DNA of 22,336 bases from a virus, in the IMG/VR virus record IMGVR_UViG_3300027963_000366, positions 1 through 22,336 of that record; one strand, written 5' to 3'. This document shows positions 8,726-12,993 of the stretch, piece after piece; the stretch's first letter is position 1; every line of letters starts with the position of its first letter. The position numbers were made by a program, and so were the translations under genes. The notes under the pieces are model-generated. The model saw nothing but the letters and a program-made list of their open reading frames with translations, was not told where the DNA came from and ran no database searches.

Positions 8726-9648
<923 letters not shown>

Positions 9649-9649
<1 letters not shown>

Positions 9650-12057: not shown

Positions 12058-12993
12058 TTATCCCTCAATGTCTAAAAACGCCCTCACGAATTCCGTCGCC
12101 GTTCTAAGGTTGATCGCGTTTCCGTAGGCGCGAAGTCGTCCCACTGTGGAGGAATCGCTTGCAGCCAGCGGGAGTGTGCCGGGTTCAATCGGGCGCCATT
12201 TTTCATCGCGACAGTAGACCCATTCAACAGGATCACCTCCAAGCCGGAGTCGGTCGGGGAACCCGCCAAAGTTGCCACCATCCCGAGGTCGGACAAGGTA
12301 ATCCCCATTGATGAGCCGTTGGCTACCGCTCTCCGTTTCCGCTGCAAGAACTGTTCCGGTGTTCCTCCTAGTTGGGTTACCGTTGGCGTCGGCCATCCCG
12401 CCAACAATGCCGCGCCTTTCAGCGTCATTCCTCCAGTTTGCGCTGGCGTCGGATTGATCGTGTCCTGTGCGCCCTCGTTGACCGTTGGTGTGGGCCAGCC
12501 AGTAAGTGCGGGCGCGGATGTTCGCCGCGCCGAAGCCCGCGCTTGGAATTTCAGCGCACCCGAAGGTGTAGCCGATTCCTTCCAAGTCACCGCGTACAAG
12601 ATCAACCCACTCATCCGCGCCCGTAACTTGCTCGCCAAAGATCGTGTCAGGTCTCTCGTGTTGAATGTGCCAGAACCAGGCTGGCCATAGGTGCCGCTCG
12701 TCATCAAACCCGCCTCTTTTGCCTGCGCTGGAGAAAGGTTGGCATGGGCATGATCCCGTCCATACGGGCCATTCGTCCGGCCACCCTGCGTCTTTGAGCG
12801 CCCTTGCCCAGATTCCGATTCCGGCGAAGAAGTGACACTGTTGATATCCGCAAAGGTCAGTTGGGACCACATCGCAGATGCTTCGCTCGTCAACAAATCC
12901 GCACGGGATTTCGTTGGCGTTGCCAAGGTTTCGCAGCCACTGCCCACAATAGGCGTCAAATTCGTTGTAGTAGATTTCTCCATCGTTGTTCAC
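12058..12993 (-). CDS. DNA C5-cytosine methyltransferase
   Basis: A 311-aa enzyme of the Dcm family that transfers a methyl group from S-adenosylmethionine to cytosine C5. Motif I is HFFAGIGIWARALKDAGW; the catalytic Cys is in motif IV GSCPCQPFSSAGKRGG; motif VI appears as GEQV in place of the usual ENV (the catalytic Glu is kept); motif VIII is ANIRARTYWLAH; motif X is GRLRAYGNAINLRTATEF. The target-recognition region is short. The start is GTG at 12991-12993, overlapping the previous stop as GTGA, with GAGAGG about 8 nt upstream. No partner restriction enzyme is visible, so it is probably a solitary enzyme protecting phage DNA from host restriction. A second long frame runs through it (see next entry). 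Confidence 0.9.
   Translation of the reverse strand: MNNDGEIYYNEFDAYCGQWLRNLGNANEIPCGFVDERSICDVVPTDLCGYQQCHFFAGIGIWARALKDAGWPDEWPVWTGSCPCQPFSSAGKRGGFDDERHLWPAWFWHIQHERPDTIFGEQVTGADEWVDLVRGDLEGIGYTFGCAEIPSAGFGAANIRARTYWLAHTNGQRGRTGHDQSDASANWRNDAERRGIVGGMADANGNPTRRNTGTVLAAETESGSQRLINGDYLVRPRDGGNFGGFPDRLRLGGDPVEWVYCRDEKWRPIEPGTLPLAASDSSTVGRLRAYGNAINLRTATEFVRAFLDIEG
12084..12983 (-). CDS. 299-codon open frame inside the methyltransferase gene (possible overprinted gene)
   Basis: This frame is shifted +1 relative to the methyltransferase, on the same strand, and stays open for almost the whole gene. Segments lying over methyltransferase motifs (YGRDHAHANLSPAQAKEAGL opposite motif IV; LNPAHSRWLQAIPPQWDDFA opposite motif X) resemble, from memory, hypothetical proteins frequently annotated at phage C5-methyltransferase loci. 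That similarity can arise simply because the methyltransferase frame is conserved. The ATG at 12981-12983 has no ribosome site; it is 8 nt downstream of the methyltransferase GTG. It is either a real overprinted gene or a recurring annotation artefact. The methyltransferase frame is certainly the functional one. Confidence 0.25.
   Translation of the reverse strand: MEKSTTTNLTPIVGSGCETLATPTKSRADLLTSEASAMWSQLTFADINSVTSSPESESGQGRSKTQGGRTNGPYGRDHAHANLSPAQAKEAGLMTSGTYGQPGSGTFNTRDLTRSLASKLRARMSGLILYAVTWKESATPSGALKFQARASARRTSAPALTGWPTPTVNEGAQDTINPTPAQTGGMTLKGAALLAGWPTPTVTQLGGTPEQFLQRKRRAVANGSSMGITLSDLGMVATLAGSPTDSGLEVILLNGSTVAMKNGARLNPAHSRWLQAIPPQWDDFAPTETRSTLERRRNS

Follow-up and report, generated by a model that had tools for sequence, protein, structure and literature searches.

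A nested +1-frame gene within a phage C5-cytosine methyltransferase gene, the probable second subunit of a split enzyme

The target sites of the methyltransferases M.EcoHK31I and M.AquI are YGGCCR and CYCGRG, respectively. The beta polypeptide of M.EcoHK31I, reportedly 176 aa long, is said to be read in another frame from within the alpha gene, and in vitro the two polypeptides are reportedly both required. C5-methyltransferases normally hold the target-recognition region (TRD) and motif IX between motifs VIII and X (PMC3404938). In M.EcoHK31I the larger subunit contains motifs I-VIII and X, with the predicted TRD placed in alpha, and motif IX is found in the smaller subunit; M.AquI is also a C5-methyltransferase of two polypeptides, with IX and X both in the smaller one (PMC3404938).

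The locus described here probably belongs to the already known kind of M.EcoHK31I, which is its closest described case. It lies in a window of 22,336 nucleotides, the whole stretch of DNA that was analysed (IMG/VR virus record IMGVR_UViG_3300027963_000366, positions 1 to 22,336). All window features given below are on the minus strand.

Two overlapping frames and their products

The locus comprises alpha, the large subunit of a C5-cytosine methyltransferase (12058..12993, 311 aa, GTG start), and a +1 open reading frame (ORF) with a full open extent of 299 aa from an ATG (12084..12983). The first-pass annotation had reported two frames of about 300 codons on one strand, which is what was found; for the second frame this length holds for its openness (299 codons) and not for its coding extent, which is about 262 codons (12872..12084). 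This coding part is beta, a nested +1-frame gene of 262 aa running from a conserved internal ATG to a TGA stop (12084..12872). A random frame this long had also been called unusual, in agreement with 5000 synonymous-codon shuffles of alpha where a +1 run of such length appeared in 0.6% (P=0.006). Under synonymous shuffling an open beta region at a single locus has P=0.037, and the long +1 run at this locus alone is suggestive only. The longest run in the +2 frame is just 50 codons.

Alpha matches PF00145 (E=3.4e-11, above cutoff, spanning motifs IV-VIII only) and phrog_363 (E=6e-65), and its best Foldseek matches are M.HaeIII/M.HhaI. It holds motifs I, IV, VI, VIII and X. Motif I is CHFFAGIGI (12811..12837), recognised from the sequence and the alpha alignments; the catalytic motif IV is GSCPCQPFS (12730..12756), PCQP being invariant in these alignments; motif VIII is NIRAR (12508..12522), with R160 and R162 invariant; and motif X is RLRAYGNAIN (12109..12138), with L287, G291, N292 and A293 invariant. 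The combination that marks a C5-methyltransferase, a catalytic PCQ motif IV together with I, VI and VIII, is thus present (SCPCQP, GEQ and RxR are invariant). Motif IX was not found in the alpha frame, and alpha lacks the usual arrangement of TRD and motif IX in the same chain between VIII and X. Its linker between these motifs (12139..12486) varies in sequence and is predicted to be disordered; its bases also encode the WPTP modules and the motif IX-like element of beta. In the predicted structure pLDDT falls below 50 across most of residues 174-252 and across 273-291, and alpha appears to have no folded region between VIII and X.

In beta a helix-hairpin segment is followed by WPTP modules, of which this phage has two and relatives have 1-5, and by a C-terminal element, LNPxHSRWLMGLPxEW. 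The predicted helix-plus-hairpin domain (residues 72-119, 12516..12659) overprints the alpha catalytic core and has pLDDT ~83-91 over residues 71-110. The first of the two GWPTPT modules is at 12396..12500. The motif IX-like element RLNPAHSRWLQAIPPQW (12141..12191) is near-invariant in the beta alignment and corresponds to an LNPxxSRWLMGxP pattern that alpha is without; in the window it has diverged, with RWLQAIPPQW where RWLMGLPPEW is found elsewhere. Among the window-type loci that were resolved, 203/204 have this element in the +1 frame.

Beta matches phrog_31772 (E=1e-20) and the +1 protein also matches phrog_1008, which together with the phage records listed below bears out the likeness to annotated hypothetical proteins that the first-pass annotation had noted. 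Beta has no Pfam family and no PDB relative by sequence. The AlphaFold model of beta alone is poor (pLDDT 62), and a fold search with it was discarded as it gave only low-confidence chance matches (cyanase, E of at least 0.14); an 'Mte8-like' annotation led nowhere. Using hhalign, the window beta family aligned to the VIII-X region of single-chain actinophage methyltransferases with a probability of 93% (E=3e-7) and to the C72C1 type, which has a more distant alpha, with 99.6%, the controls with reversed or column-shuffled profiles giving 0.1-0.2%. A putative correspondence of beta to the TRD plus motif IX is supported at this level of profile comparison.

Conservation, start and selection of the +1 gene

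Relatives were gathered from viral contigs and bacterial genomes with alpha, the alpha alignment and the beta alignment as queries, and were grouped into 144 clusters (<70% aa identity). Alpha and beta were both present and overlapping, beta always in phase +1, in 258/258 related loci tested, and no stand-alone beta without alpha was identified among these 258 window-type loci. All 86 loci retrieved with alpha as query have the nested +1 beta (86/86). Within the beta region of the 144 clusters no +1 stop was observed vs 427 expected from synonymous shuffles, whereas +2 stops over the same region were undepleted (1859 observed vs 1628 expected). The region was delimited in this count by beta itself, and stops were therefore recounted between alpha landmarks (DERSI to motif X) in loci retrieved by alpha alone. 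In this recount 21 of 30 clusters were wholly open vs 1.35 expected, and the 12 stops seen (vs 96.5 expected) were located only ahead of the beta start, at codons 4-7, or near motif X, from codon 293 onwards. Chance is excluded across relatives as the cause of the open +1 frame. Searches by tblastn with the +1 protein identified 217 phage records, 129 of them covering at least 80% of its length, and those with alpha identified 381, with 205 covering at least 80%; in most records outside the full-length group the match is confined to the conserved core of motifs IV-VIII.

In most relatives the beta ATG is formed at the Asp-Val junction of alpha DERSIxDV. The junction Asp codon is GAT, which creates the ATG, in 81/97 vs 40% overall (p=7e-19), and for the Arg upstream of it 55/137 clusters use AGG, a codon with a share of 8.9% among Arg codons (p=8e-23), yielding a Shine-Dalgarno sequence, GAAAGGAG, ~8 bases ahead of the ATG. 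Many relatives have GAAAGGAGT where the window has the weak Shine-Dalgarno-like GAGCGAAG (12881..12888, within the alpha codons DERS). The window ATG of beta is at 12872, not at 12983. The upstream extension of the +1 ORF (12873..12983) is interrupted in relatives, the frame being closed by stops between the alpha start and the conserved internal ATG in 78/97 clusters, and over it alpha third positions are unconstrained with no sign of second-frame constraint. A start at ATG 12983 was rejected on both grounds, and the stretch 12983..12873 is probably non-coding and open by chance.

Selection was followed through substitution rates by codon position in 29 independent pairs of close relatives, and the analysis was also run on 54 pairs. 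In phase +1 the alpha positions 1/2/3 are beta positions 3/1/2. Outside the overlap the alpha third position is normal (0.181 upstream and 0.229 downstream, 29 pairs), and it drops to 0.121 in the catalytic core (29 pairs); alpha silent sites are about two-fold slower in the overlap outside the VIII-X stretch, the suppression in the core vs upstream reaching only P=0.0115 on independent pairs. In the VIII-X stretch the rates are 0.205/0.111/0.121 at alpha positions 1/2/3 (29 pairs), that is, the fastest position is the beta wobble (third) position and not that of alpha, and 0/2000 bootstraps reverse this. There, 78.5% of random pairs have a higher identity in beta than in alpha, and over the core beta identity amounts to 0.52 vs 0.34 after shuffling. 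From the inverted rates and these identities it follows that alpha is the dominant frame until motif VIII and beta from VIII to X, both being under constraint. Purifying selection acts in both frames and the locus is dual-coding.

Of the two options offered by the first-pass annotation, an overprinted gene conserved across phages is therefore the one supported, by stop depletion, shuffles and synonymous constraint on alpha. The checks it proposed gave no stops within the +1 gene of homologues, even divergent ones, shuffled genes whose frame fails to stay open across relatives, and synonymous-site constraint in the methyltransferase frame. The internal start at 12872 and the identity of the product, a probable beta subunit of a split C5-methyltransferase, are additions to that account.

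Interpretation of the locus

The best explanation, given a probability of roughly 0.83, is a two-polypeptide C5-cytosine DNA methyltransferase of the M.EcoHK31I type, with a catalytic alpha and a beta carrying the TRD and motif IX. Frame 0 would give alpha with AdoMet binding, the catalytic Cys and motif X, and the internal ATG, in many relatives after a strong Shine-Dalgarno sequence, would give beta in the +1 frame. Beta would provide the small domain absent in alpha, with the WPTP modules as target-recognition region together with motif IX. We infer that the two chains associate physically as a heterodimer with methylation activity, in which alpha would flip and methylate the cytosine of a target site read mainly by beta, and that the biological role is presumably to shield the phage genome from host restriction.

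The neighbourhood is a replication/recombination cluster with a DnaB-like helicase, a DNA helicase, a replication initiator, a Holliday junction resolvase and exonucleases. In the replication-initiation-like protein at 8726..9649 a repetitive stretch gives a score, below cutoff, with a procyclic-repeat Pfam model that is unrelated. A scan of the larger ORFs revealed no restriction endonuclease partner, and a solitary phage methyltransferase is therefore the natural reading. Counts of GGCC/YGGCCR are near expectation in the window, 22 kb being too short to inform.

Three other explanations were weighed. That the +1 frame is a persistent artefact, open merely through alpha conservation and stop-poor codon usage, is hardly credible: chance at a single locus is not negligible (P=0.006 for the long run, P=0.037 for the beta region), but the codon shuffles over 144 clusters (0 stops vs 427) and the inverted VIII-X substitution pattern, where beta is better conserved than alpha, refute it. 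Programmed frameshifting joining alpha and beta in one chain is very improbable. The joined product would be structurally sensible, given the actinophage relatives with TRD, IX and X in one frame, but it would be without motif X, which is kept in frame 0, and both the conserved internal ATG with its Shine-Dalgarno sequence and the stops upstream of that ATG in most clusters speak for separate initiation.

Beta could also be real and selected and yet not serve the methyltransferase as a subunit; it might, for example, act in anti-restriction or regulation. Beta alone has no structural match and no Pfam family, single-chain methyltransferases have nothing in frame 0 that corresponds to the N-terminal helix-hairpin of beta, and actinophages retain a +1 ORF with the helix-hairpin segment even when frame 0 already holds IX and X. 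Such a role is nonetheless unlikely, as motif IX is missing from alpha while an element resembling it is in beta, related phages place IX in one frame or the other in a complementary manner, beta is aligned by hhalign with TRD-IX of the single-chain enzymes, and M.EcoHK31I provides a precedent (PMC3404938). The two-subunit methyltransferase is thus the preferred reading.

Frame arrangement in relatives and comparison with described systems

Phages with a more distant alpha place the TRD-IX(-X) block in several ways. In Paenibacillus phage Shelly, Lactobacillus phage Lc-Nu and phage C72C1 with its relatives, motif IX is nested in +1 and X is in frame 0; this was the case in 75/75 resolved C72C1-type loci. 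Most actinophage relatives examined have LPTP modules, IX and X in one frame-0 chain (19 loci), and in three actinophage loci alpha is shortened and followed by a +1 frame that holds the LPTP modules as well as IX and X. Gordonia phage Jumbo (685-1606, locus coordinates) has an alpha that ends after VIII, and an unannotated, partly overlapping +1 ORF comprises an LPTP module, IX and X, an AquI-like split.

Several variant loci were observed. In Shelly (751-1455) the nested beta is annotated as 'g55 internal gene', hypothetical protein, and was thus seen by the annotators without identification. In most single-chain actinophage methyltransferases the catalytic core is still overlapped by an open +1 ORF, which has LPTP modules of its own and in which the segment SxxYSETxPxSGM is conserved; this ORF may encode the N-terminal part of beta, kept as a separate protein. 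Komagataeibacter phage phiKX1 (~2481-2999) has a long in-frame alpha insertion before motif X; read in the +1 frame, this insertion gives an HNH-endonuclease-like ORF and, after it, the C-terminal tail of beta. In Dunaliella viridis virus SI2 (1843-2320, annotated 'cytosine methylase') a large deletion has taken out the core of alpha along with the beginning of beta, both shortened frames being open, and Pseudomonas phage LPPA33 (1461-2108) has a shortened alpha (202 aa) lacking its N-terminal segment and a beta (207 aa) lacking most WPTP modules, the overlap being kept. The last two loci look like deletion derivatives with the overlap retained.

The chances are evenly balanced that beta is the specificity subunit, with 1-5 WPTP modules, of a very large superfamily of phage C5-methyltransferases whose relatives shift the TRD-IX(-X) block between frames. 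If true, methyltransferases could pass in evolution between monomer and heterodimer through the choice of frame, which would also be a means of swapping specificity. A fully dual-coding nested gene of 262 codons kept in hundreds of phages is rare, and it provides a large data set on two proteins evolving on the same bases, with the dominant frame handed over cleanly at motif VIII. Most phage records with visible annotation name one frame only, often misleadingly, and half of a common phage methyltransferase is therefore absent from annotation; a clone of alpha by itself, which is what the annotation points to, would be expected to lack activity.

The phiKX1 insertion resembles the hidden-HNH element of ShiLan (PMC11855218). 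The described hidden second-frame protein in a phage methylase gene is a mobile insertion, whereas beta is a part of the methylase gene family-wide. No description of the nested gene in phages was found in the literature searched, where there also appears to be no account of how widespread it is in phages, of selection proven on both frames or of the frame-shuffling series. The window proteins match known families, phrog_363 for alpha and phrog_31772 and phrog_1008 for beta, all labelled 'DNA methyltransferase' with no indication that they are two frames of one locus.

The locus shares with M.AquI a C5-methyltransferase in two polypeptides with IX in the smaller one, and differs from it in that alpha keeps motif X, both in the window and in aligned relatives. 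With M.EcoHK31I it shares motifs I-VIII and X in the large chain and IX in the second chain, this second chain lying in an alternative frame within the alpha gene, as is also said of M.EcoHK31I. Going by the descriptions, beta is longer here, 262 aa vs a reported 176 aa. The WPTP region that aligns with the single-chain TRD is in beta here, whereas the TRD of M.EcoHK31I was predicted in alpha, and the phage locus makes it testable which subunit reads the DNA in enzymes of the EcoHK31I kind.
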